Assembly (NCBI GenBank): GCA_945889005.1
Contig: CAMDBI010000028.1
Span: 1-45,689 of the forward strand
DNA length: 45,689 nucleotides
Direction of reading: 5' to 3'
DNA from: Bacteroides fragilis
GTDB taxonomy: Bacteria > Bacteroidota > Bacteroidia > Bacteroidales > DTGW01
Below, one piece after another: positions 11,801-22,695 of this stretch (positions within the stretch are counted from its first letter, which is position 1; each line of letters opens with the position of its first letter). A program made the position numbers and the translations under genes. The notes under the pieces were generated by a model that saw only the letters and a list, made by a program, of their open reading frames with translations, was not told the DNA's origin and did no database searches.

Positions 11801-12170
11801 CGAATTTGCAGGGGCATTTAATCCAATCTATATTGTTCACGACAATAAACTCAATGAGATTAAGGGTAATAGGTTTTCTGTAAGTCTCGAAAAAAGCGAA
11901 GGACAGCAGAATTTCAAAACACATCAAATACAATTAGATCCCAATGATATGGTGTATATGTTTTCCGATGGGTTTGCCGATCAATTTGGAGGTTATGAAG
12001 GTAAAAAATATAAATACAGAAGATTTAGACATTTGCTTCTGAATATTCACGATATGCCATTAGACGAACAAAAGAAAACACTAGACGATTCTATTGAGAC
12101 TTGGCGCGGCAACCATGAGCAGGTCGACGATATCTTAATAGTAGGCATTAAGGCTCAGTATATATCTTAA
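8853..12170 (+). CDS. Propeller (Reg_prop)/Y_Y_Y sensor with SpoIIE phosphatase output
   Basis: A 1105-residue membrane sensor. After a signal peptide (to about residue 28) come many two-component-regulator-propeller repeats with the recurring core DxxGxxWIGTxxGLxxF, forming probably two seven-bladed propellers to about 660. A Y_Y_Y domain at about 700-790 contains SPGEYVFKVIGTNSDQIWS. A single transmembrane helix lies near 798-816, then a short helix and a SpoIIE phosphatase at about 865-1105 with SGDFYW, VDCTGHGVPGAFM, FSDGFADQFGG and DDILIVG. This periplasmic architecture is the one used by hybrid two-component systems for polysaccharides, but the histidine kinase is replaced by a PP2C-type phosphatase. 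The signal sensed is unknown. The linker ITDSINYAKRIQEALLP is nearly that of the first gene, suggesting a shared output partner. Confidence 0.9.
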   Translation: MYKPEKIILTVVQLIVVLTLLLSNGVLASNFNNRVNVFTIEDGLSQTGVTCLLIDRKGFLWTGTQDGLNRFDGYTFKTYRWQPSDNNSLCDNFIRALCQDRKGNIWIATNNGLSVFNYQTGLFTNYLHSANDVNSISSNSLYNVYEDKEGTIWVKTIESLEKYNPQNNTFSHYFHYNNVFNYATSDISFPIFEDNRGQFWIGSKDGLFLFDRQIELFERFFYRPNDINSLSDNRIKSIAEDNSGNIWIGTEYGLNQYDFRSQIFKRIDISAHSQSPSDISINKLFFEENQKQLWIGTRNGVTLLNISNNSVQKLSAINNKVEQLLGDISSIIKDKSGILWLGTSQGLIKFDSKPYKFNLFIQKIAKNQSSNNVTAIYKDQAQNHWIGTNGSGLIVKNEKTGEETYYYGLSRNENLPGDKIFEIYSDKEQNIWIGSNKGLHIYSGEKFSSFCSFANTNCSSLKNIRIFTIYEDMQNTIWIGSNQGLHKFNKKTKQFDPFVKLTIDQNKTIQQTVYSIAQDKSNNLWVGTDKGLYKIFLQTEKKVLYNTEINKVGRICSNYIYSLLCDLNGQVWIGTSNGLCLYNKTTDDFSVYTDKQGLVNNTIFSMLLDKAGNLWLGTKRGITKMNIENEEFTGFDISDGLQGYEFNIGSAFIAKDGELFFGGISGYNSFYPDKMQRNQFKPEVVITSLEIFESGKFSNISIGSTDKITLPYSTDMFNIEFASLDYTIPHKNLFKYQLSTRNEVGVWININNKHSASFSKLSPGEYVFKVIGTNSDQIWSDKEAYLKIVILTPFWRSQSALIIYGLVIFFLIYSLVQLRTVQLRKTNKHLMERELIAQAIALQKEELTLKNKNITDSINYAKRIQEALLPSERAFRKILPNSFVLHKPRDIVSGDFYWIYENNQKVVVAAVDCTGHGVPGAFMSIIGFEIFRKIVNTQTNSPGEFLDKIMEDFQKIFKDVEHISLKDGMDVTLCFIDKQTNILEFAGAFNPIYIVHDNKLNEIKGNRFSVSLEKSEGQQNFKTHQIQLDPNDMVYMFSDGFADQFGGYEGKKYKYRRFRHLLLNIHDMPLDEQKKTLDDSIETWRGNHEQVDDILIVGIKAQYIS

Positions 12171-12172
12171 TT

Positions 12173-12586
12173 CTATTTTAGACCATTTGCAATAAATAGT
12201 TTTGAATACTTCTTGTCTGATTCCAAAATATGGTCGATGAGCCATCTTTTCAAAAAATTGGTCATCTCCAGATATAATAGTAACTTGTCATTTGCGATTC
12301 GGTCTTTCCAATCTTTTACTTTTGCGGTAAACGCATCGTGTTCAGCTTTGTGCTCAGCATAACCTTCGTAGTTAAATTGCAACATTTGCTTTTCTTCAGA
12401 AAGAAAATGAAAATAAGCATATTCCAAAAGTCGGTTAATGTCTTTTGTTAACAAGTTTTTGTCTGGTATGGGCTTGTCTTTTATTTGATCATAAATATCG
12501 TTAATGATATAAAAGAGTGTTTTGTGATGCTCGTTTATAAATAAAATATTAACACTATACCGATCGTCCCATTCAATATAATTCAT
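12173..12586 (-). CDS. Bacteriohemerythrin
   Basis: A 137-residue single-domain hemerythrin that binds O2 with a non-haem di-iron centre in the cytoplasm. The ligand set and spacing fit the bacterial family: a histidine in NEHHKTL (His20 or 21), His60 and Glu64 in YFHFLSEE, His79 and His83 in EHKAEHDAF, and His119 and Asp124 in DHILESD. The opening EWDDRYSVNILFINEHH is the usual IxWxxxxSVGxxxxDxQH variant. It may store or deliver O2, or scavenge it in a microaerophile. The gene is convergent with the propeller gene (two-base gap) and divergent from the trp leader, so its promoter must lie in the AT-rich stretch after 12586, where I see no good -7 match. Confidence 0.9.
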   Translation of the reverse strand: MNYIEWDDRYSVNILFINEHHKTLFYIINDIYDQIKDKPIPDKNLLTKDINRLLEYAYFHFLSEEKQMLQFNYEGYAEHKAEHDAFTAKVKDWKDRIANDKLLLYLEMTNFLKRWLIDHILESDKKYSKLFIANGLK

Positions 12587-12648
12587 AGCTTAACGTTTTA
12601 TTAAAGTTAATTATTTTTAAAAAATATTTTCGAAAAAAATGATTTTAT

Positions 12649-12680
12649 TTGTTTTTTAGAAAGATTTTATTTTTATTTGC
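12649..12680 (+). promoter_or_regulatory. trpL: Weak candidate promoter for the trp leader
   Basis: TTG at 12649-12651, a 21-base spacer and TTTATTTG at 12673-12680 (one mismatch to TAnnTTTG). Transcription would begin near 12687, a few bases before the leader ATG. The surrounding DNA is extremely A/T-rich, so chance matches are likely. Confidence 0.25.
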
Positions 12681-12698
12681 TTTTATAATATTTGAAAA

Positions 12699-12758
12699 TG
12701 ATAACAATAAACAAAATATGGTGGTGGCAATTATTTCTCATGAATCCGTGGGGGTAAG
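12699..12758 (+). CDS. trpL: Tryptophan operon leader peptide
   Basis: A short frame encodes the 19-residue peptide MITINKIWWWQLFLMNPWG, ending in TAA at 12756-12758. Three consecutive TGG codons occupy 12720-12728 and a fourth lies at 12750-12752, in a strongly A/T-rich region. Four tryptophans in 19 residues just upstream of trpE, followed 23 bases later by an intrinsic terminator, is the signature of a ribosome-mediated attenuation leader. No Shine-Dalgarno sequence is present, which is normal for this phylum. Translation of the peptide is inferred from position and composition. Confidence 0.85.
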
Positions 12759-12799
12759 CATCATTTATATGTTTTGATATAAAAAGCGGCCTGTCGGAT
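12745..12799 (+). promoter_or_regulatory. Candidate antiterminator of the trp attenuator
   Basis: Bases 12745-12753 (ATCCG-T-GGG) can pair with 12790-12799 (CCT-GT-CGGAT), giving eight pairs, one of them G-T, around a small internal loop. The 3' partner lies in the 5' arm of the terminator, so the two structures exclude each other. A ribosome stalled on the three Trp codons would leave 12745 onward free to form it; a ribosome reaching the stop codon would cover it. This pairing was derived by hand and not by a folding program. Confidence 0.5.
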
Positions 12800-12826
12800 A
12801 ATCTCGATAGGCCGCTTTTCTTTTTT
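12782..12826 (+). terminator. Attenuator terminator upstream of trpE
   Basis: A strong intrinsic terminator: AAAAGCGGCCT (12782-12792) pairs perfectly with AGGCCGCTTTT (12809-12819), and the stem extends inward with wobble pairs to a small loop. CTTTTTT follows at 12820-12826. It lies between the Trp-rich leader peptide and the trpE ATG at 12856. The only other gene nearby (hemerythrin) is divergent, so it can act only on leader transcripts. Confidence 0.9.
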
Positions 12827-12855: not shown

Positions 12856-14268
12856 ATGAAATCAATTAAGATTTTAACCCAAGTAAAACAATCGCTTGCC
12901 GATACCATTACACCGGTAAGCATTTATCTGAAATTACGAGAGCTTTATCCTAATTCATTTTTGCTTGAAAGTTCAGACTATCATGGAAACGAGAATAGTT
13001 ATTCATTTGTGTGCATTGCACCCATTGCTGAGTTTACAGTTAATAAAGGGCAAGCAAAATGCATGTTTCCCGACAAATCGGTATTTACTTCCGAATTGAA
13101 CACCCCTGACTCTTTCAACAATGTATTGAATAGTTTTATAAAGTCATTTCAAATCGACTACAAATCGCTAAAAGGTCCCGCAAACGGCTTTTTTGGATAT
13201 TCGAGCTACAATGCAGTACGGTATTTCGAAACTATCAAATTGCAAGCTCCTCAAAAGAATACGTACGAGATACCCGAAGTTCGATATACTCTTTTTAAGT
13301 ATATAATTGCCATCAATCATTTTCAAGATACAGTTAGTATTGTCGAAAATTTAACTGAAGGCGAAAAGAGCGAGATAGATCGTGTTGATACATTGATACA
13401 TAAGCTTAGTACATCGCCATCGGGTATGTTCGAGACAGTTGGTAACGAAATGTCAAATATTACCGACAACGAGTACAAAGAGATGGTTTCAAAAGGTAAA
13501 AATAGTTGTTTTCGTGGCGATGTGTTTCAAATTGTACTTTCGCGCCAGTTTTCGCAACAATATATTGGCGACGATTTTACACTCTATCGGGCACTTCGGT
13601 CGATCAACCCTTCGCCATATCTGTTTTACTTCGACTATGGCAATTTTCGAATTTTCGGTTCTTCGCCCGAAGCACAAATAAAAATACGAAAAGGACGGGC
13701 TTATATAAACCCCATTGCTGGCACATTTAAGCGCTCGGGAAGTGACGAGCGCGACAAACAGTTGGCTTCCGAACTTATAAAAGACAAAAAAGAAAATGCA
13801 GAACATGTTATGCTTGTCGATTTGGCTCGAAACGACTTAAGTCGACAAGGTAGCGATGTAAAAGTTGAGAGTTATCGTGAGGTGCAGTATTACTCGCACG
13901 TTATACACCTTGTGTCGACCGTGTCTGCTCAATTGCACGAAAATTCAAATCCTATAGATATGATGACTGCAACTTTTCCGGCAGGAACACTTTCGGGAGC
14001 GCCCAAGTTTAAGGCTATGGAGCTAATCGACACATACGAAAACCAAGCCCGTGGTTATTATGGAGGCGCTATTGGGCTGCTCGATTTCGATGGGTCGGTT
14101 AACCACGCTATTATGATACGCACTTTTTTGAGCAAAGACAACAGCCTTTTTTATCAAGCGGGAGCTGGCATTGTGGCAGCTTCGGTCGAAGAAAACGAGT
14201 TGCAAGAAGTGCACAATAAACTAGGAGCTTTAAAAAAAGCTATTGAAGTTGCAAAAGGTATTAATTAG
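12856..14268 (+). CDS. trpE: Anthranilate synthase component I
   Basis: TrpE converts chorismate to anthranilate with ammonia supplied by TrpG, the first step of tryptophan synthesis. The 470-residue protein has the N-terminal regulatory part, including LLESSDYHG (around residues 36-45), where the LLES motif contributes to the tryptophan feedback site in the family. The chorismate-binding part follows, with SPSPYLFYFDYG-like, FGSSPEAQIKI, PIAGTFKRSGSDERD and TFPAGTLSGAPKFKAMELIDTYE. It starts 30 bases after the attenuator terminator and is the first structural gene of the operon; trpG follows after 19 bases. Confidence 0.96.
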   Translation: MKSIKILTQVKQSLADTITPVSIYLKLRELYPNSFLLESSDYHGNENSYSFVCIAPIAEFTVNKGQAKCMFPDKSVFTSELNTPDSFNNVLNSFIKSFQIDYKSLKGPANGFFGYSSYNAVRYFETIKLQAPQKNTYEIPEVRYTLFKYIIAINHFQDTVSIVENLTEGEKSEIDRVDTLIHKLSTSPSGMFETVGNEMSNITDNEYKEMVSKGKNSCFRGDVFQIVLSRQFSQQYIGDDFTLYRALRSINPSPYLFYFDYGNFRIFGSSPEAQIKIRKGRAYINPIAGTFKRSGSDERDKQLASELIKDKKENAEHVMLVDLARNDLSRQGSDVKVESYREVQYYSHVIHLVSTVSAQLHENSNPIDMMTATFPAGTLSGAPKFKAMELIDTYENQARGYYGGAIGLLDFDGSVNHAIMIRTFLSKDNSLFYQAGAGIVAASVEENELQEVHNKLGALKKAIEVAKGIN

Positions 14269-14287: not shown

Positions 14288-14857
14288 ATGAAAATTTTAG
14301 TTATAGATAATTACGATTCGTTTACCTACAATTTGGTTCATTATGTAAGCCAACTTACAAACGAAAAGGTAGATGTTTGCCGCAACGATAAAATTTCGCT
14401 GGAAGAAGTTGGCCAATACGATAAAATAATTTTATCGCCCGGACCCGGTATTCCCGTTGAAGCGGGAATCTTATTAGATGTAATTAGGCAATATGCGCCA
14501 AACAAGAGTATTTTGGGAGTATGCCTTGGACACCAAGCTATAGGCGAAGCATTTGGCGGCAAATTGACCAACTTGAAAGAAGTTTTTCATGGTGTAGCAA
14601 CCCCAGTAAAACTCTTGACTAACACAGAGCCATTGTTCAAAGGCTTTCCGGAGCGATTCGATGTTGGACGCTATCATTCTTGGGTAGTCGACAAAAACAA
14701 CCTTCCCGATTGCTTTACTCTTACTTGCGAAGACGACGAAGGCTTTATTATGGGATTAACACACAAAACCTACGACGTTAGAGGTGTGCAGTTTCATCCC
14801 GAATCGGTGCTAACTCCCAACGGATTGAAAATGATTGAAAACTGGTTGAACAAATGA
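14288..14857 (+). CDS. trpG: Anthranilate synthase component II (glutamine amidotransferase)
   Basis: A class I glutamine amidotransferase of 189 residues that releases ammonia from glutamine for TrpE. The nucleophile elbow GVCLGHQ contains the catalytic Cys, and VQFHPESV carries the His-Glu pair. The oxyanion-region motif LSPGPGIP is also present. In many Bacteroidota one such subunit also serves p-aminobenzoate synthase; whether this one is shared cannot be told. Its last codons overlap the trpD start (ATGA, four bases), implying translational coupling. Confidence 0.95.
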   Translation: MKILVIDNYDSFTYNLVHYVSQLTNEKVDVCRNDKISLEEVGQYDKIILSPGPGIPVEAGILLDVIRQYAPNKSILGVCLGHQAIGEAFGGKLTNLKEVFHGVATPVKLLTNTEPLFKGFPERFDVGRYHSWVVDKNNLPDCFTLTCEDDEGFIMGLTHKTYDVRGVQFHPESVLTPNGLKMIENWLNK

Positions 14858-15846
14858 AAGAAATATTAGTTAAACTATACACAGGAAAGGTTCTTACGCG
14901 CGATGAATCTGTTGAAGCATTGAAGGAACTGGCAAGTGGCAAATACTCCGAAGCCGAAATAGCTTCTTTTTTGACCGTTTATCTCATGCGCGAAATTGCT
15001 CCTGAGGAATTGCTAGGTTTTCGCGACGCGATGCTCGAAATGTGTGTTCAGGTCGACCTTTCGGACTATAAACTCATAGATGTTTGCGGCACCGGGGGCG
15101 ACGAGAAGAACACTTTTAATATTTCTACCATTTCGGCATTTGTATTGGCGGGAGCAGGTATTAAAGTAGCAAAACATGGCAACTACGCGGTATCGTCGCC
15201 GGTTGGTTCGTCAAATGTTTTTGAATATTTTGGTTATAAATTTGGAAACGACCCCGACAAACTCAAGCGCGAACTCGACGAGGCAAATATTTGTTATCTC
15301 CATGCACCATTCTTTCATTTAGCCATGAAAAATGTAGGTCTGGCACGTAAAGCTCTAAAAGTAAAAACTTTTTTCAACCAGCTGGGTCCATTGTCCAATC
15401 CGGCTCGCCCAAAATATCAGTATGTTGGAGTTTTCAACAAAGCAACACTCGATTTATATTCAAAGCTTTACCAGCAAACAGATATTAATTATTCGATTGT
15501 GTACAGTCTCGATGTATATGACGAAATATCGCTTACTTCCGATTTTATTATTAACTATAAGGGCAATTCGTCACAAATAAGTCCCAAATCGATCGGTTTT
15601 GTTAATGTAGAACCAGGAGCACTTTTTGGAGGCAATACCATTGTTGAAGCTGCCGATATTTTTACAAATATACTCAATGGAAAAGGTACAAAATCGCAGA
15701 ACGATGTTGTGATTGCCAATACGGCTTATGCTTTGCAATGCTACATGCCCGACAGATCAATTGCAGACTGTATTGCCATAGCAAAAGAATCGTTAGAAAG
15801 CAAAAAAGCACTTGGAGTATTTAAAAAACTAATAGACATTCAATAG
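14854..15846 (+). CDS. trpD: Anthranilate phosphoribosyltransferase
   Basis: Transfers phosphoribosyl from PRPP to anthranilate, the second step of the pathway. The 330-residue protein carries the PRPP-binding glycine motif DVCGTGGDEKNTFNIST, the KHGNYAVSSPVGSSNVFE block and the anthranilate-site region NVGLARKALKVKTFFNQLGPLSNPARP. It is a stand-alone TrpD, not fused to TrpG as in enterobacteria. It overlaps trpG by four bases and its TAG stop directly abuts the ATG of trpC. Confidence 0.96.
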   Translation: MKEILVKLYTGKVLTRDESVEALKELASGKYSEAEIASFLTVYLMREIAPEELLGFRDAMLEMCVQVDLSDYKLIDVCGTGGDEKNTFNISTISAFVLAGAGIKVAKHGNYAVSSPVGSSNVFEYFGYKFGNDPDKLKRELDEANICYLHAPFFHLAMKNVGLARKALKVKTFFNQLGPLSNPARPKYQYVGVFNKATLDLYSKLYQQTDINYSIVYSLDVYDEISLTSDFIINYKGNSSQISPKSIGFVNVEPGALFGGNTIVEAADIFTNILNGKGTKSQNDVVIANTAYALQCYMPDRSIADCIAIAKESLESKKALGVFKKLIDIQ

Positions 15847-16632
15847 ATGAGCACTATTCTCGACAAAATAATTGATTACAAACGCGCCGAAGTATTTGAA
15901 AGAAAAGAAAAACATAGTGTTAAAGAGCTTGCGAAAAGTGAATATTTTCAAGATACTTGTTTTTCGTTAACCGATTTTCTGTTAGATGATACAAAAACCG
16001 GAATTATAGCAGAGTTTAAACGAAAATCGCCGTCAAAAGGAGTTATAAACGATAAGGTTAGAGTCGAAGAGGTTACACAAGCATATTCGAAACATGGAGC
16101 ATCGGCTCTTTCGATATTGACCGACACCCCATCGTTTGGTGGCACTACCGACGATTTGCTCACTGCTCGCAATGTAAATGATATACCCATACTTCGCAAA
16201 GACTTCATTATTGACTCATACCAAATTGTTGAAGCTCGATCGATGGGAGCCGATATTATATTGCTCATAGCAGCTTGCCTAACACCCAACGAGACCTTTA
16301 AACTGGCTCAGTTTGCTTGGGAATTGGGCTTAGAAGTTCTGCTCGAAGTGCACGATCGCGACGAACTTATTCATTGCAACGAGTATGTAAATGTGGTAGG
16401 TGTCAACAACCGTAATTTAAAGGATTTTTCGGTCGACATCAATCGATCGGTCGAATTGGCTGAGCATATCGACGAGGCTTTTTTGAAAGTTTCGGAAAGT
16501 GGGATACATTCAATAGATCATATCAAAATGCTCAAAAATGCTGGGTTTAATGGTTTTCTCATTGGCGAAAATTTTATGAAAGAAACCGACCCCGGAAAAG
16601 CTTTTGAAGAATTTGTGAACAAATTGAAATGA
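15847..16632 (+). CDS. trpC: Indole-3-glycerol phosphate synthase
   Basis: A TIM-barrel enzyme of 261 residues that closes the indole ring of CdRP with loss of CO2 and water, forming indole-3-glycerol phosphate. Family motifs are AEFKRKSPSKG (catalytic Lys), LRKDFIIDSYQI, LLIAACL, LLEVHDRDEL, VGVNNRNLKDF and VSESGI...GFLIGENFM. It is separate from TrpF, unlike the enterobacterial fusion. It starts at the base after the trpD stop and ends with an ATGA overlap into trpF. Confidence 0.96.
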   Translation: MSTILDKIIDYKRAEVFERKEKHSVKELAKSEYFQDTCFSLTDFLLDDTKTGIIAEFKRKSPSKGVINDKVRVEEVTQAYSKHGASALSILTDTPSFGGTTDDLLTARNVNDIPILRKDFIIDSYQIVEARSMGADIILLIAACLTPNETFKLAQFAWELGLEVLLEVHDRDELIHCNEYVNVVGVNNRNLKDFSVDINRSVELAEHIDEAFLKVSESGIHSIDHIKMLKNAGFNGFLIGENFMKETDPGKAFEEFVNKLK

Positions 16633-17261
16633 GACGAGATCTGAAAATAAAAGTTTGTGGAATGCGCGATGCCGACAACATTTGCCGACTCATACAATTG
16701 CCAATCGATTATATTGGATTTATCTTTTACACTAAATCGCCTCGCTATGTTGGAGAACAAATTGATCGAAATATTTTGGACTTGGTACCAAGACATATAA
16801 AAAAAACAGGTGTATTTGTCAATGAAGCAAAGGAGAAGGTCTTGGAGATTGCTTTAAAGAACCAATTACAGGCAGTTCAGTTGCATGGCGACGAATCGCC
16901 CGAATACCTTTTATTTCTAAAAGATCGGGGCATTGAATTGATTAAAGCATTTAGAATTGCAGAAAATTTCGATTTCTCGAAGCTCGAAAATTACTCCAAT
17001 ATATGCAATTACTTTTTGTTCGATACTCAAACGGCTCATTTTGGAGGTAGTGGCAAAAAATTTGATTGGCAAATACTCGAAAACTTCACACTTGACAAGC
17101 CTTTTTTTCTGAGTGGAGGAATAGGAGCTGAAGATAAGCAGCACGTATTGAGTTTTAATCATCCTGCGCTTTTTGCTATTGACCTTAATAGCAAATTCGA
17201 GATTGAACCTGGTTTAAAAAATATTGGACTGTTGAAAGAGTTTATATATAGTGAGTTATGA
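16629..17261 (+). CDS. trpF: Phosphoribosylanthranilate isomerase
   Basis: Catalyses the Amadori rearrangement of PRA to CdRP. The 210-residue TIM barrel starts with KVCGMRDADNI (catalytic Cys). It continues with IGFIFYTKSPRYV, VQLHGDESPEYL, the catalytic-Asp segment FDTQTAHFGGSGKKFDW, FFLSGGIG and a terminal DLNSKFEIEPGLKN phosphate-binding region. It is coupled to trpC by a four-base overlap. A 154-base gap with inverted repeats separates it from trpB, so transcription through that gap is needed for the last two genes unless a second promoter exists there. Confidence 0.95.
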   Translation: MRRDLKIKVCGMRDADNICRLIQLPIDYIGFIFYTKSPRYVGEQIDRNILDLVPRHIKKTGVFVNEAKEKVLEIALKNQLQAVQLHGDESPEYLLFLKDRGIELIKAFRIAENFDFSKLENYSNICNYFLFDTQTAHFGGSGKKFDWQILENFTLDKPFFLSGGIGAEDKQHVLSFNHPALFAIDLNSKFEIEPGLKNIGLLKEFIYSEL

Positions 17262-17415: not shown

Positions 17416-18603
17416 ATGAAATACAACGTAAACGGGAAAGGCTTTTTTGGCGAATTTGGTGGCGCTTATATTCCCGAAATGCTTTACCACAACGTAGAAG
17501 AGTTGCGTTCTCGATATCTCGATATTTTGAACTCTTCAAAGTTTCAGAACGAATTTAAAAGTTTGTTGAAAGATTATGTAGGTCGACCTTCGCCTCTGTA
17601 TTTTGCAAAACGCTTGTCGGAGAAATATGGCACAAAGATATATCTAAAACGCGAAGACCTTAACCATACCGGATCGCACAAGATAAACAATACCATTGGT
17701 CAGATTTTACTTGCCAAAGAATTGGGCAAGAAGCGTATTATTGCCGAAACCGGAGCCGGCCAACATGGCGTAGCAACTGCAACCGTGTGTGCACTCATGG
17801 GAATGGATTGTGTGGTACACATGGGCGAAACCGATGTAAAGCGTCAAATGCCCAATGTTTTGCGAATGAAAATGCTTGGAGCAAGAGTTGTTCCGGCTAT
17901 GAGCGGCAACCGCACATTGAAAGATGCCGGCAACGAAGCATTGCGCGACTGGATTAACAATCCCGAAGATACACATTATCTATTGGGCTCGGTGGTTGGA
18001 CCACATCCATACCCCGATTTGGTAGCTCGTTTGCAATCGGTTATTAGCGAAGAAATACGTTTCCAGTTGAAAGAACAAACTGGCTCGGAACTGCCCGACT
18101 ATGTAATTGCCTGTATTGGTGGAGGAAGCAACGCTATGGGAGCATTTTATCACTTTGTCGACGAGCCTTCTGTGAAATTGGTTGCCGTTGAAGCGTCAGG
18201 TTTAGGAGTCGATTCGGGCGAAACAGCGGCATCGATTGCAAAAGGAACATTGGGTATTATTCAAGGAGCAAAAACCTTTTTGATACAAAACGACGATGGA
18301 CAAATAACCGAGCCATACTCGATTTCGGCAGGTCTCGACTATCCGGGTATTGGACCTCAACACGCTCACTTATATGCTACAAAACGAGCTATTGTGTTAG
18401 ATGCTACAGATCAAGAAGCTTTAGATGCTGCATTTTTGCTTACCAAACTTGAAGGAATTATTCCTGCCTTAGAGTCGGCACATGCTGTTGCAGGTCTCGA
18501 AAAAATTAAATTTAAAGCCAACGACGTGGTTGTGCTCAATGTTTCGGGCCGGGGCGATAAGGACATGGATACGTATATTAAATTACTAATGACGAATTAC
18601 TAA
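17416..18603 (+). CDS. trpB: Tryptophan synthase beta subunit
   Basis: PLP-dependent replacement of the serine hydroxyl by indole, the last step of tryptophan synthesis. The 395-residue protein has the standard TrpB1 motifs: [10 protein letters not shown] near the N terminus, [15 protein letters not shown] with the PLP lysine at 89, [27 protein letters not shown] for PLP phosphate binding, and [14 protein letters not shown]. The last residues, MTNY, are encoded by a short tandem sequence that continues past the stop and also occurs at the end of dxr. It works in a complex with TrpA, encoded 81 bases downstream. Confidence 0.97.
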
Positions 18604-18684: not shown

Positions 18685-19452
18685 ATGAACAGAATAGATC
18701 AACTTTTTCAGAATAAGAAAAACAATATATTGTCGATATACTTTACTGCAGGTCATCCGCAATTGGACAGTACCTCGACTATTGTTGAGCATCTTTCACT
18801 GTCGGGAGTCGATATGATTGAGATCGGAATGCCCTTTTCAGATCCCTTGGCCGATGGGCCAGTAATACAAGCCAGTAGCAAAAAGGCTTTAGAAAATGGA
18901 ATGTCTTTAAAAATGCTATTCGAACAACTAAGCAGCATTCGACAAAAAACCAATATTCCCTTGCTTCTAATGGGATATATAAATCCAGTTTTTGTATATG
19001 GGGTTGAGGCTTTTTGCAAAAAATGTGCTGAAGTTGGTATCGATGGATTAATACTTCCCGATTTGCCTATGGACGAATTTTTGGAAAAATATAAATCTGT
19101 TTTCGATCATTATGGCTTGTACAATATATTTCTGGCAACTCCTCAAACCGATGAGAAAAGGCTAAAGCAAATCGACTCGGTCTCAAAAGGCTTTATTTAT
19201 CTGGTGTCGACATTCTCAACAACTGGTTCGGGCAAAGGAATAGAAGGTTCGCAAGCATATTTCGAAAAAGTGCAATCGATGAATCTTAAAAACCCGACTA
19301 TAATTGGGTTTGGAATAAAAGACAAAGCAACTTTTGACTTTGCTTGCAAGTATGCCAATGGGGCAATTATTGGAACGGCATTTGTGAAAGCGATTGACGA
19401 AACGAAGGATTTGGTTGGCGAAATAGACTCGTTTAAGAAAAAAATACAATAA
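18685..19452 (+). CDS. trpA: Tryptophan synthase alpha subunit
   Basis: Cleaves indole-3-glycerol phosphate to indole, which is channelled to TrpB, and glyceraldehyde 3-phosphate. The 255-residue TIM barrel shows the catalytic glutamate and aspartate in MIEIGMPFSDPLADGPVIQ (Glu of IEIG, Asp of PLADG), LMGYINPV, LILPDLPMDE and STFSTTGSGKG. It is the last gene of the trp operon. Its TAA stop is followed after one base by the stop of the convergent B2-like gene, leaving no room for a separate terminator. Confidence 0.96.
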   Translation: MNRIDQLFQNKKNNILSIYFTAGHPQLDSTSTIVEHLSLSGVDMIEIGMPFSDPLADGPVIQASSKKALENGMSLKMLFEQLSSIRQKTNIPLLLMGYINPVFVYGVEAFCKKCAEVGIDGLILPDLPMDEFLEKYKSVFDHYGLYNIFLATPQTDEKRLKQIDSVSKGFIYLVSTFSTTGSGKGIEGSQAYFEKVQSMNLKNPTIIGFGIKDKATFDFACKYANGAIIGTAFVKAIDETKDLVGEIDSFKKKIQ

Positions 19453-19453
19453 A

Positions 19454-19894
19454 CTACGAAAAACACGCTACTACTTTAAAGCGACTCATCCCTTTTCGGC
19501 CAAGAATAATAGCATTGCCACATCTAAGCCATGCATGAGCAATAAGTTCTTTTTTTGCGTCTTTGCTTACACCCAAATAAATGGTCGAAGGTATGTTGCG
19601 CTTGTCGAGCATTTTTTTGGCAGTCATAGCATCGACCAAGCACTTGGTCGGCCACAGTGCAAATCGCGAACTACGACGAACCGCATGGGCAATTGAGTAT
19701 GCTTTTGAACTAATACACGAAACTTCTTCTTCCTGCGACACCTTATTTATTTGTCCAAGCCAAATTGAATATCGCTTCAAAGGCAGAAACGAAACTGCCA
19801 ATCGGCTAATAAACGAATAGTAGTATGCTTCCCAAAAAAGAGCTTTTTCTTTTTTGCTAATTTGTGAATATCGAATGATAGGTAAGGGTGGCAT
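19454..19894 (-). CDS. Lasso peptide biosynthesis B2-like protein (Transglut_core3 family)
   Basis: A 146-residue protein whose C-terminal half matches the pattern of lasso-peptide B2 leader peptidases (papain/transglutaminase fold). Visible are a Trp-Pro-x-x-Cys segment WPTKCLVDAM (Cys85), KRNIPSTIYLGVSKD, IAHAWLRCG (His120) and a terminal RFKVVACFS. No Asp or Glu follows His120; Asn127 stands near where the third triad residue is expected, so peptidase activity is uncertain. The start at 19894 is chosen because its ATG overlaps the M16 stop (TAATG); a longer frame to 19948 would run into the M16 gene. No lasso cyclase, B1 or precursor gene is visible, so it is an orphan. It could act with the coupled M16 peptidase. 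Confidence 0.7.
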   Translation of the reverse strand: MPPLPIIRYSQISKKEKALFWEAYYYSFISRLAVSFLPLKRYSIWLGQINKVSQEEEVSCISSKAYSIAHAVRRSSRFALWPTKCLVDAMTAKKMLDKRNIPSTIYLGVSKDAKKELIAHAWLRCGNAIILGRKGMSRFKVVACFS

Positions 19895-22695
19895 TATTGT
19901 TTCATGCTTTCGGGGTAAAGAACAACCTTTATGTAGTCCTTCCCGCAATACTTATGGGCTACATCTTGAATGTTCTTCGACGACAATTTTTCAATATCGT
20001 CAAATTGTTTTAATATATTTTCAAGTTTTCGGTCGTAATTCACTGCATTCTGTATTGCAGCAATCCAATAACCGTTTGTTTTTAAACTTGTTTCAAGTTC
20101 TCGTTTCTGAGTTTCTTTTATTTTAATCAAGTCTTTAGGCTCAACACCATTTGTTTTAATTTTTTCAATCTCTTTTAAAGCGGCTTTTTCAAGACTATCG
20201 ACATTGTCGGGGGCACAAGGATAAACAATGGTGAATTTATAATTCTCGAAGGGGTATTTGCTCATACTGCTTTGGACACCCAGCGTGTAAACACCACTTT
20301 TTTCTTCACGCAACGACTCAATAAGCTTTATGTCGAGAAGATCTGACAAAGACAATAAGTAGTAATCTTCCTTGGGCGAATATTTTGTTTCCGATGTAAA
20401 TACTAAGTTTACTTTACTCTTTGGATCAGAGCCTTTGTAAAAGTCTTTTTTCACCGAACCCTTAGGAGGTCTCATTCCAATATCTTTGGGTTTTTCGAAA
20501 TTCTTATTTGAAGGCAAACTGCCAATCCATTGTTCGACGAATGGTTTTATGGTTTCGAGTTCGAAATTACCAGCAAATACGAAGGTGAAATCTGCGGCAT
20601 TTGAAAATCGGTCTTTATAGATTTGATGCACTCGTTGCAAATCAATTTTGTCGAAATCGCTTTCTTCTGGAATGGTATATGCACGAGGATGGTTTTGAGT
20701 AAGTACTTTGGCAAGTTGATCTTGGTAGAAATAATTTGGGTCGACTTTCAGATTAGCAACCATTGCCTTGCTACGAGTTTTGTAAGAGTTAAAGGCCAAG
20801 CTGTCGTAACGAGGAGCAGTAAAATATAAATACAAGAGTTGAAAAAAGGTTTCGAGGTCTTTGGGAGTAGTTCTGCCATTCATTCCTTCCGAAATGCCAG
20901 AAATATAAGAAGCAAGGCTAACAGTTTTTCCCGAAAGGGTTTTCTGAAGGTCTGTTTTTGAAAAATTGCCTACACCGCTTTCTCTTACGATATTGTTGGT
21001 AAAAACTGTCGAATAGAAATCCTTCATATCGTACAAATTTTGCCCACCATAACTAAAGCAGCTCATTAATATTTCGTCGTCTTTGAATTTTGTCGGTTTT
21101 AAGTATATCGTAGCTCCATTTGACAAAGTCCATATGGTAGTTTGAGTGTTTTTTTCATTTTTTTCTTTAACTATTTTTCCTTTTTGAGGAATCTCATTAA
21201 CAAGAGAACTGTCGATAAGAGACTCAGTATATGATTTAAGATTTGTTTTGTTAATTTCTTCAAATATTGATAAAACTTGTTCTTTGCTTGGCAAAACAAC
21301 TCCTTCTTTTTCGGGCGATGTTATTACAACGACTCGATTGGAATCTGTGATCCATGCAGTTGCAAGTTTATTTATTTCATCGAGCGAAATACTTGGCAAA
21401 TTGGTTGTTGCAAAATTATATTCCCAAAGAATGCCCGGAATTGGTTCGTTGTCGGTAAATGCACTGGTAAGTTCCGATGCGTAATTGGCCGATTCGCTTT
21501 TGTCGCGTTCATTATAGGCTTTTTCATAATTTGAAAGCACACTCTTCTTTGCTCTTTTTAACTCTGCACTTGTAAACCCAAATCGTTTTATTTTTTCATT
21601 TTCAGCCACTATTGTTTTAAGACCAAAGATTAAGCCAGTATCTGCAACTGTAGCACCGGTCATATAGGCATCTTCGGTTTGTGCTCCAATATTTCCATAA
21701 TTGGCAAAGGCTCTAATAAAGGGAGGATTTTCGGAGCGAGTCAATTCGTTGAATCGCATATTGATCATATAGGAGTATAGTTGTTTCATAATAAAGAATC
21801 TATAATCTTCAATTCGAGACTCGTCCTTTGAATCGGTTTTGTAAATTACGACACATTCAGATTCGACTGCTTCTTTGTCGCTACAAATCGAAACTAATGT
21901 TTCGGCATGACCGGGAACAGGAAACGACTCTCTTTTTCGGGGAGAAATGGGTGATTGAATTTTTTCAAAATATTTTTTGATCTTTTTTTCATATTCTTTC
22001 ACATCAATATCGCCAACAACGATTACTGCCATAAGATCGGGTCTATACCATTCGTTGTAGTATCGCTTAATGGCACTATGGGGAAATGTTTCAAGAATTT
22101 CTTTTTTGCCAATCGGTAGGCGCTCGGCATATTTCGAATGTTGGAAAATGACCGGCAAATATTTGTCGAGCATACGTTGTTCGGCACCTTGACCCAGTCT
22201 CCATTCTTCAACAATAATTCCACGTTCTTTTTCAATTTCGGCGCTATCGAAACTTAAGCCATGCGCCCAATCTTCGAGCACTAGAAAACCCTTTTCGACA
22301 ATCGAGTCGGCATCGGTTGGCAAATGAAGCATATACACTGTTTCGTCGAAACCGGTATATGCATTGAGGTGAGCTCCAAATTTAACACCTACAGACTGCA
22401 GGTAGTTTACCAATTCGTTTTTACGAAAGTGTGTTGAACCATTGAATGCCATGTGCTCTGTAAAGTGAGCGAGCCCTTGTTGATCGTCGTCTTCAACAAC
22501 AGAGCCAACTTTCATAGCTATGCGCATTTCGACCCTGTTTTCGGGCTTTTTGTTTTTCTTAATATAGTAGGTTATTCCATTGCTGAGTTTGCCGATTGTA
22601 ACAGATGTATCGGTCGGAATTAATTGATCGTTGCTATTTGCCGACACAGTGGTTATTAGCAAAATAGAAAGAAGTGTCAATAAAATAGTCTTCAT
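19894..22695 (-). CDS. Exported M16 (pitrilysin/PqqL-type) zinc metallopeptidase
   Basis: A 933-residue, two-halved M16 peptidase with an N-terminal signal peptide (MKTILLTLLSILLITTVSAN), so it probably acts in the periplasm. The inverted zinc motif HxxEH is HFTEH (His77, Glu80, His81), and the distal glutamate lies in EKERGIIVEEW about 76 residues on. The second half is the usual inactive M16_C-type domain with a VFAGNFELETIKPFVEQWIGSLP segment. Close homologues are the large Bacteroidota insulinase-like proteins of PqqL type, which degrade or process peptides. Its stop codon overlaps the start of the B2-like gene, so the two proteins are made together. Confidence 0.9.
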   Translation of the reverse strand: MKTILLTLLSILLITTVSANSNDQLIPTDTSVTIGKLSNGITYYIKKNKKPENRVEMRIAMKVGSVVEDDDQQGLAHFTEHMAFNGSTHFRKNELVNYLQSVGVKFGAHLNAYTGFDETVYMLHLPTDADSIVEKGFLVLEDWAHGLSFDSAEIEKERGIIVEEWRLGQGAEQRMLDKYLPVIFQHSKYAERLPIGKKEILETFPHSAIKRYYNEWYRPDLMAVIVVGDIDVKEYEKKIKKYFEKIQSPISPRKRESFPVPGHAETLVSICSDKEAVESECVVIYKTDSKDESRIEDYRFFIMKQLYSYMINMRFNELTRSENPPFIRAFANYGNIGAQTEDAYMTGATVADTGLIFGLKTIVAENEKIKRFGFTSAELKRAKKSVLSNYEKAYNERDKSESANYASELTSAFTDNEPIPGILWEYNFATTNLPSISLDEINKLATAWITDSNRVVVITSPEKEGVVLPSKEQVLSIFEEINKTNLKSYTESLIDSSLVNEIPQKGKIVKEKNEKNTQTTIWTLSNGATIYLKPTKFKDDEILMSCFSYGGQNLYDMKDFYSTVFTNNIVRESGVGNFSKTDLQKTLSGKTVSLASYISGISEGMNGRTTPKDLETFFQLLYLYFTAPRYDSLAFNSYKTRSKAMVANLKVDPNYFYQDQLAKVLTQNHPRAYTIPEESDFDKIDLQRVHQIYKDRFSNAADFTFVFAGNFELETIKPFVEQWIGSLPSNKNFEKPKDIGMRPPKGSVKKDFYKGSDPKSKVNLVFTSETKYSPKEDYYLLSLSDLLDIKLIESLREEKSGVYTLGVQSSMSKYPFENYKFTIVYPCAPDNVDSLEKAALKEIEKIKTNGVEPKDLIKIKETQKRELETSLKTNGYWIAAIQNAVNYDRKLENILKQFDDIEKLSSKNIQDVAHKYCGKDYIKVVLYPESMKQ

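Follow-up and report, generated by a model that had tools for sequence, protein, structure and literature searches.

A predicted ribosome-mediated tryptophan attenuator before a Bacteroidota trp operon, and parallel leaders of other amino acid operons

The window analysed here is a stretch of 45,689 nucleotides from a Bacteroides fragilis assembly (contig CAMDBI010000028.1 of GCA_945889005.1), and coordinates given without a locus number refer to it. Its plus strand carries a complete trp operon in the order trpEGDCFBA, as assigned from Pfam domains: trpE, encoding anthranilate synthase component I (12856..14268; PF04715 and PF00425), trpG, encoding a glutamine amidotransferase (14288..14857; PF00117), trpD (14854..15846; PF00591 and PF02885), trpC (15847..16632; PF00218), trpF (16629..17261; PF00697), trpB (17416..18603; PF00291 together with its place in the operon) and trpA (18685..19452; PF00290). 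The closest named matches of trpE are from Bacteroidales MAGs, the best of them at 64% identity, which suggests that the genome belongs to the class Bacteroidia. A gene for a hemerythrin-like protein (12173-12586, minus strand; PF01814) is divergent from the operon, while a gene for a transglutaminase-like protein, which is not a trp gene, is convergent with trpA (19454-19948, minus strand; PF13471) and overlaps the end of a minus-strand frame at 19894-22695.

Upstream of trpE, on the same strand, lies a short frame (12698..12757) that would encode the leader peptide MITINKIWWWQLFLMNPWG; the frame was read from the sequence, and its run of Trp codons is kept in relatives. It starts with the ATG at 12698-12700, ends with the TAA at 12755-12757 and is 19 residues long. 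Three adjoining Trp codons (TGGTGGTGG, 12719..12727, plus strand), referred to here as WWW, form the putative Trp sensor, and a fourth Trp codon lies at 12749-12751. A leader of this length with WWW and a fourth Trp codon had been proposed in the first-pass annotation and is confirmed here, the ATG being one base 5' of the start given there. In the window and in its relatives alike, the leader is thus a short frame rich in the amino acid that the operon makes.

Most translation starts in Bacteroidota are thought to do without Shine-Dalgarno pairing. Among 77 non-redundant WWW leaders of trp operons, one has AGGA, GGAG or GAGG at -16 to -4, with 3.2 expected from shuffles, a count that points to no Shine-Dalgarno enrichment over chance and falls short of proving depletion. 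At position -3 of the leader starts A is favoured (58% of the 77 leaders). The sequence TAnnTTTG is the consensus of the Bacteroidota promoter box, and it occurs no more than 60 bases upstream of the leader in 42 of the 77, compared with 4.7% in mononucleotide shuffles. The locus in the window has no exact TAnnTTTG box, only versions with one mismatch, one of which belongs to a weak candidate for a Bacteroidota promoter (12648..12679, plus strand), composed of TTTG, a 20-nt spacer and TTTATTTG. Our guess is that transcription starts near 12685. A scan for the sigma-70 consensus gave nothing above shuffles (4 found, 4.8 expected).

The leader frame is followed by a predicted intrinsic terminator, a hairpin (3:4) at 12782..12819 on the plus strand with 16 pairs and a folding energy of -26 kcal/mol, and then by the T tract CTTTTTT (12820..12826, plus strand). 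The ATG of trpE is 36 bases 3' of the end of the hairpin, so that the strong intrinsic terminator that had been called before trpE indeed stands between the leader frame and the first gene. The 167-nt leader folds at -46.3 kcal/mol, compared with -27.1 (sd 3.4) for 200 dinucleotide shuffles (z -5.7), none of which folds as low. A hairpin of this kind could be a plain terminator or insulator, with the WWW frame coincidental and the operon controlled at its promoter. The surroundings speak against this, since the hairpin stands some 600 bases beyond the end, at 12170, of the nearest upstream plus-strand frame of at least 100 aa.

Folds were computed for the transcript at successive lengths, with a ribosome placed as a mask at several positions; the mask for a stalled ribosome took in everything up to 12735. 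When the ribosome is set at the first of the Trp codons in a transcript that ends at 12803, positions 12744-12748, 12750, 12752-12755 and 12758-12759 pair with partners in 12786-12799; the total is -16.3 kcal/mol, part of it from a small inner hairpin at 12764-12783. From folding and from the coevolution described below we recognize region 2 (12744..12759, plus strand), the predicted 5' strand of an antiterminator, which overlaps the end of the leader frame and its stop codon, and region 3 (12786..12799, plus strand), the predicted 3' strand, which is part of the terminator, in its 5' arm and loop. The pairing of 12745-12753 with 12790-12799 suggested in the first-pass annotation forms the core of this antiterminator, but the stop codon does not lie just past the pairing region, as had been stated: the pairing region passes through it. 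With the ribosome at the stop codon the best remaining fold is -2.3 kcal/mol, a fold that is weak partly because the mask takes away sequence, and with nothing stronger left the terminator would be free to form. The masked folds (stalled against at stop) thereby support the earlier suggestion that a stall would favour read-through and free translation would favour termination, and prediction and coevolution, as far as these go, point to an antiterminator exclusive with the terminator, freed by a stall and covered at the stop.

The ribosome-free fold contains hairpin 1:2 (12712..12776, plus strand), which holds seven of the nine WWW bases together with region 2. The WWW codons are paired with the downstream segment in 59 of the 77 non-redundant WWW leaders. 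When no ribosome is present, the antiterminator is preferred at a transcript end of 12799 (-19.1) and hairpin 1:2 is best from a transcript end of 12803 onward (-20.0); ribosome-free folding of this leader is, as modelled, mixed and not clean. Once the transcript is complete the terminator is the favoured structure throughout, even with a stalled ribosome, which suggests that the decision must fall during transcription, as in a kinetic switch. The attenuator of E. coli also decides kinetically during transcription.

A short frame with WWW is found within 1500 bases upstream of trpE, or of trpB-trpE, in 126 of 139 Bacteroidota loci. In a stricter test (ATG start, WWW, within 500 nt of trpE) the leader is present in 121 of the 139 loci, and the leader together with a terminator in 120, while the same test finds a leader in none of 1390 dinucleotide-shuffled regions. 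The WWW leader upstream of trpE is not a product of chance, and its association with a terminator in 120 of 139 loci is hard to reconcile with a coincidental frame before a plain terminator. WW is kept in five of the 13 loci without WWW (L014, L018, L021, L057 and L085), L032 and L033 have W-C-W followed by the same kind of terminator, and L082 has a terminator-like hairpin with no Trp-rich frame seen. Terminators without Trp codons in relatives, which had been named as evidence against attenuation, are therefore not the general case, L082 being an exception. Two loci, L029 and L030, are weak TrpE matches and probably not trpE.

In further loci of the window's class WWW is found in 18 of 26, WW in six more and neither in two; in other classes of the phylum WWW is found in 19 of 29 loci, which are the best-scoring ones and not a random draw. 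When the sets are merged, WW or WWW is present in 177 of 193 loci (WWW in 161), a count that includes the WW frames of L016, L025, L151 and L154, which look like chance; in L016 and L025 trpB immediately precedes trpE and overlaps the counted frame or abuts on it. A terminator of -8 kcal/mol or lower with a T tract follows 174 of the 177 leaders, the three without it being L025, L151 and L154. The 16 loci without a WW frame are divided equally between the window's class and the rest, and L147, outside the class, is among them only because its WWW frame fell beyond the fixed search span. In L010, L014, L017, L020, L024 and L186 the leader is more than 1300 bases upstream, with trpB between leader and trpE, and the distant leaders of L014 and L186 have WW only. 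L034 was left out because it has the same contig and leader as L008, and L170 because its genome is that of L112; L054 and L063 have one leader in common and were merged only in the non-redundant sets. Tandem Trp-rich short frames were seen before a single trpE in L004 (-325 and -162), L015 (-285 and -134) and L066 (-264 and -136).

The terminators also bear on the possibility that the leader peptide controls translation of trpE, the structures hiding or exposing the trpE start. Full-length minimum free energy folds do contain weak pairs toward the trpE start. The stable hairpin, however, ends 36 bases before the ATG and has the T tract next to it, and such a hairpin with a T tract recurs after nearly all of the leaders; we regard translational control as very unlikely.

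For 89 non-redundant leaders, incomplete transcripts were folded under both ribosome masks. The mean energy is -14.0 kcal/mol when the ribosome sits on the first Trp codon and -1.8 when it sits on the stop, and in all 89 the stalled fold is the stronger by more than 1 kcal/mol. The duplex that region 2 is predicted to form with the terminator (5' arm and loop) has a mean of -12.1 kcal/mol in these leaders, compared with -8.4 when region 2 is shuffled. Against such shuffles 39 of the 89 leaders singly reach a p of 0.05 (0.073 for the window), and the combined p is 4e-33, a statistic that ignores shared ancestry. In a partner-swap test of the 77 WWW leaders, own partners pair at a mean of -12.3 kcal/mol and swapped partners at -9.0 (z -10.9), and in none of 20,000 permutations do the swapped partners pair as well as the leaders' own. 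Taken singly, the own region 3 ranks within the top tenth for its region 2 in 32 of the 77 leaders, and the own region 2 for its region 3 in 20; given such modest results for single leaders, the signal resides in the set. These comparisons indicate that strands 2 and 3 of the antiterminator coevolve. With this the plain-terminator explanation becomes extremely unlikely.

Part of the covariation has a recurring form. Region 2 contains GUGA in 42 of the 77 leaders, starting 28-31 bases after the first Trp codon in 32 of the 42, and UCAC is present in or beside the terminator loop in 38 of the 77. UCAC in or next to the terminator loop, as in L058, L010 and L004-L007, recurs across families, and with it GUGA at a distance of about 29 bases from the first Trp codon. 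This recurring pair is best explained by antiterminator pairing; the window's leader has different letters at both places. In leaders with an early stop, +15 to +18 from the first Trp codon (for example L015, L019, L136 and L138), much of the fold persists with a ribosome at the stop, so that the switch model fits these leaders less well.

The same architecture is found before other amino acid operons of the same genome. A His-rich leader, MNKQTTHILSIPMHHHHHGRLLP, precedes hisG (L140, minus strand), a Val/Leu-rich leader, MKLLNTVLVVVVVVVLKNIE, precedes ilvD (L141) and a Phe/Tyr-rich leader, MSVLASLVGYFYFYFFFATQKSRD, precedes pheA (L143), each followed by a terminator. In loci from 60 related genomes leader and terminator occur together before hisG in 22 of 30, pheA in 28 of 29 and ilvD in 17 of 30, while shuffles give both in 0 of 300, 0 of 290 and 0 of 300, respectively, and the leader alone in 1, 11 and 6. 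The loci examined were 30 of 38 hisG matches, 29 of 30 pheA matches (the fragment L258 being left out) and all 30 ilvD matches; at the hisG locus L203 only 232 bases upstream are present. Regions 2 and 3 coevolve in the hisG, pheA and ilvD sets as well, with 0 of 20,000 swaps in each and z of -5.8, -8.9 and -7.5 (n = 22, 28 and 17). In the own genome ilvD (-19.5) and pheA (-12.4) have a strong predicted 2:3 pairing, and hisG (-7.5) a weak one. The 23 his, phe and ilv loci tried (three from the own genome and 20 from relatives) gave no match to an Rfam leader family at gathering, and no Thr-rich leader was found before thrA of the own genome, either in L174 or in the 400 bases upstream of that gene. 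A short frame, MVSFILLILFI, lies 231 bases before the thrA frame. The Bacteroidales small SRP RNA (RF04183) is found upstream of ilvD in L274 (970-1077) and L283 (1067-1174).

These parallels are informative about what is sensed. A protein or free tryptophan might work the switch, by way of a TRAP-like protein, a riboswitch or TnaC-like stalling, with the Trp codons only a part of it. TRAP control uses a series of GAG/UAG repeats in the leader, and the sequence leaves room for another ligand. What recurs, however, is a run of Trp codons in frames that otherwise differ in their residues, and the His, Phe and Val/Leu operons have matching residues in the same architecture, which together point to tRNA charging as the signal. 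Nor was any T-box or riboswitch over the cut-off found by Rfam in the whole window, where only a tRNA is matched at gathering. Control by a protein or by free tryptophan thus seems improbable in the extreme.

The element in the window is a divergent copy of Rfam RF01692, 'Bacteroid-trp', which Rfam describes as a Bacteroidete tryptophan peptide leader RNA. In a search of 301 bases RF01692 is the best of 26 matches, aligning over the full length of the model to 12678-12795 with 39.8 bits and an E value of 0.0019; the score is below the cut-off of 49. A gathering-level scan of the window does not report the family, nor does a scan of the own genome at an E value of 0.001. The next match, to a plasmid antisense RNA family (26.2 bits), includes the hairpin and is a hairpin-type chance match, yet its E value (0.0024) is almost equal. 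Apart from the score, the window agrees with RF01692 in place, upstream of Bacteroidetes trp genes, in phylum, in the WWW-coding strand, with Trp codons at the UGGuGGUG of the model, and in having a hairpin over them. Of 17 trp loci tried, six exceed the cut-off (L010, L017, L020, L037, L058 and L117) and the other 11 are below it, so that leaders at the same place in relatives do include members of the family. In a draw from the phylum, under strict filters, RF01692 matches in 13 of 146 genomes, with 11 of them above the cut-off. By comparison, the TrpE N-terminal domain is matched in 130 of 148 genomes drawn in a similar way, a number that may also count PabB. This suggests that the Rfam model finds only part of the Bacteroidota trp leaders. 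The model stops within the terminator's 5' arm and thus contains neither the terminator nor the antiterminator pairing.

The claim of the first-pass annotation that such attenuation is little described in the phylum did not stand, since RF01692 is the same element, and either it or attenuation by leader peptides is mentioned in Flavobacterium papers. Vitreschak and others (2004) reportedly made a comparative study of attenuation, the abstract of which is said to name Bacteroidetes/Chlorobi, and Lopatovskaya and others (2010) reportedly made another. RF01692 was listed in 2010 in Table 1 of PMC2864571, and a 2019 paper discusses it for F. psychrophilum, with a mention of the E. coli leader (PMC6414381). 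A 2021 transcriptome study of F. psychrophilum refers to strong clues of leader peptide attenuation before amino acid operons (PMC9723704), and in a B. thetaiotaomicron map small frames in long 5' UTRs are said to resemble attenuation leader peptides (PMC7366714). A literature search, mostly outside the reach of subscription papers, found no functional test of such an attenuator in Bacteroidota. The trp attenuator type is therefore already catalogued for the phylum.

The predicted architecture resembles that of E. coli trpL in having a leader peptide with Trp codons, 1:2, 2:3 and 3:4 alternatives and a T tract, all ahead of trpE. Rfam gives no match to the E. coli Trp_leader (RF00513) in the window. 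The E. coli leader has WW where the window has WWW, and the Bacteroidota leaders differ from it in lacking a Shine-Dalgarno-like motif in 76 of 77 cases. The 2:3 pairing of E. coli extends upstream of the terminator stem, whereas region 2 of the Bacteroidota leaders extends its pairing into the loop of the terminator (GUGA with UCAC in 34 of 77). Leader peptide attenuators based on the same principle have been described outside Proteobacteria in different taxa, in papers on Actinobacteria (PMC1262725) and Firmicutes (PMC2965389); a word search of the latter paper did not find the word Bacteroid.

Taken with the folds and the coevolution, the leaders make it very probable that the trp operon of the window is controlled by a ribosome-mediated transcription attenuator. 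RNA polymerase would make the leader while a ribosome translates the 19-residue peptide. When charged tRNA-Trp is short, the ribosome would stall at WWW, leaving region 2 free to pair with region 3, so that the terminator would be blocked and trpEGDCFBA transcribed. When tryptophan is plentiful, the ribosome would reach the stop at 12755 and cover region 2, the hairpin at 12782-12819 would form and transcription would stop. If the leader is not translated, hairpin 1:2 would hold region 2 and the operon would be kept off. Stalling, coupling, termination and the response to tRNA-Trp are the steps that we infer.

More broadly, attenuation is likely to be a core, phylum-wide form of amino acid control, covering at least trp, his, phe and ilv, with starts that do without Shine-Dalgarno pairing and an antiterminator geometry of its own: region 2, some 29 bases beyond the first Trp codon, would pair into the loop of the terminator (GUGA with UCAC). 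Phylum-wide occurrence is seen for trp, and the leaders of his, phe and ilv were examined within the window's order. The trp branch is also the only one for which a curated family was found in Rfam, and its model covers a small part of it. The part worth following is this combination of trp leaders across the phylum, his, phe and ilv leaders in the order, the absence of Shine-Dalgarno enrichment and the loop-invading antiterminator. Classical attenuation depends on a ribosome and a polymerase that keep pace with each other and on rapid initiation at a short leader. If attenuation works in Bacteroidota, coupling and fast initiation would not need Shine-Dalgarno pairing. The attenuator also offers a prediction, open to experiment, of how amino acids are sensed in a phylum that is prominent in guts, soil and sea.
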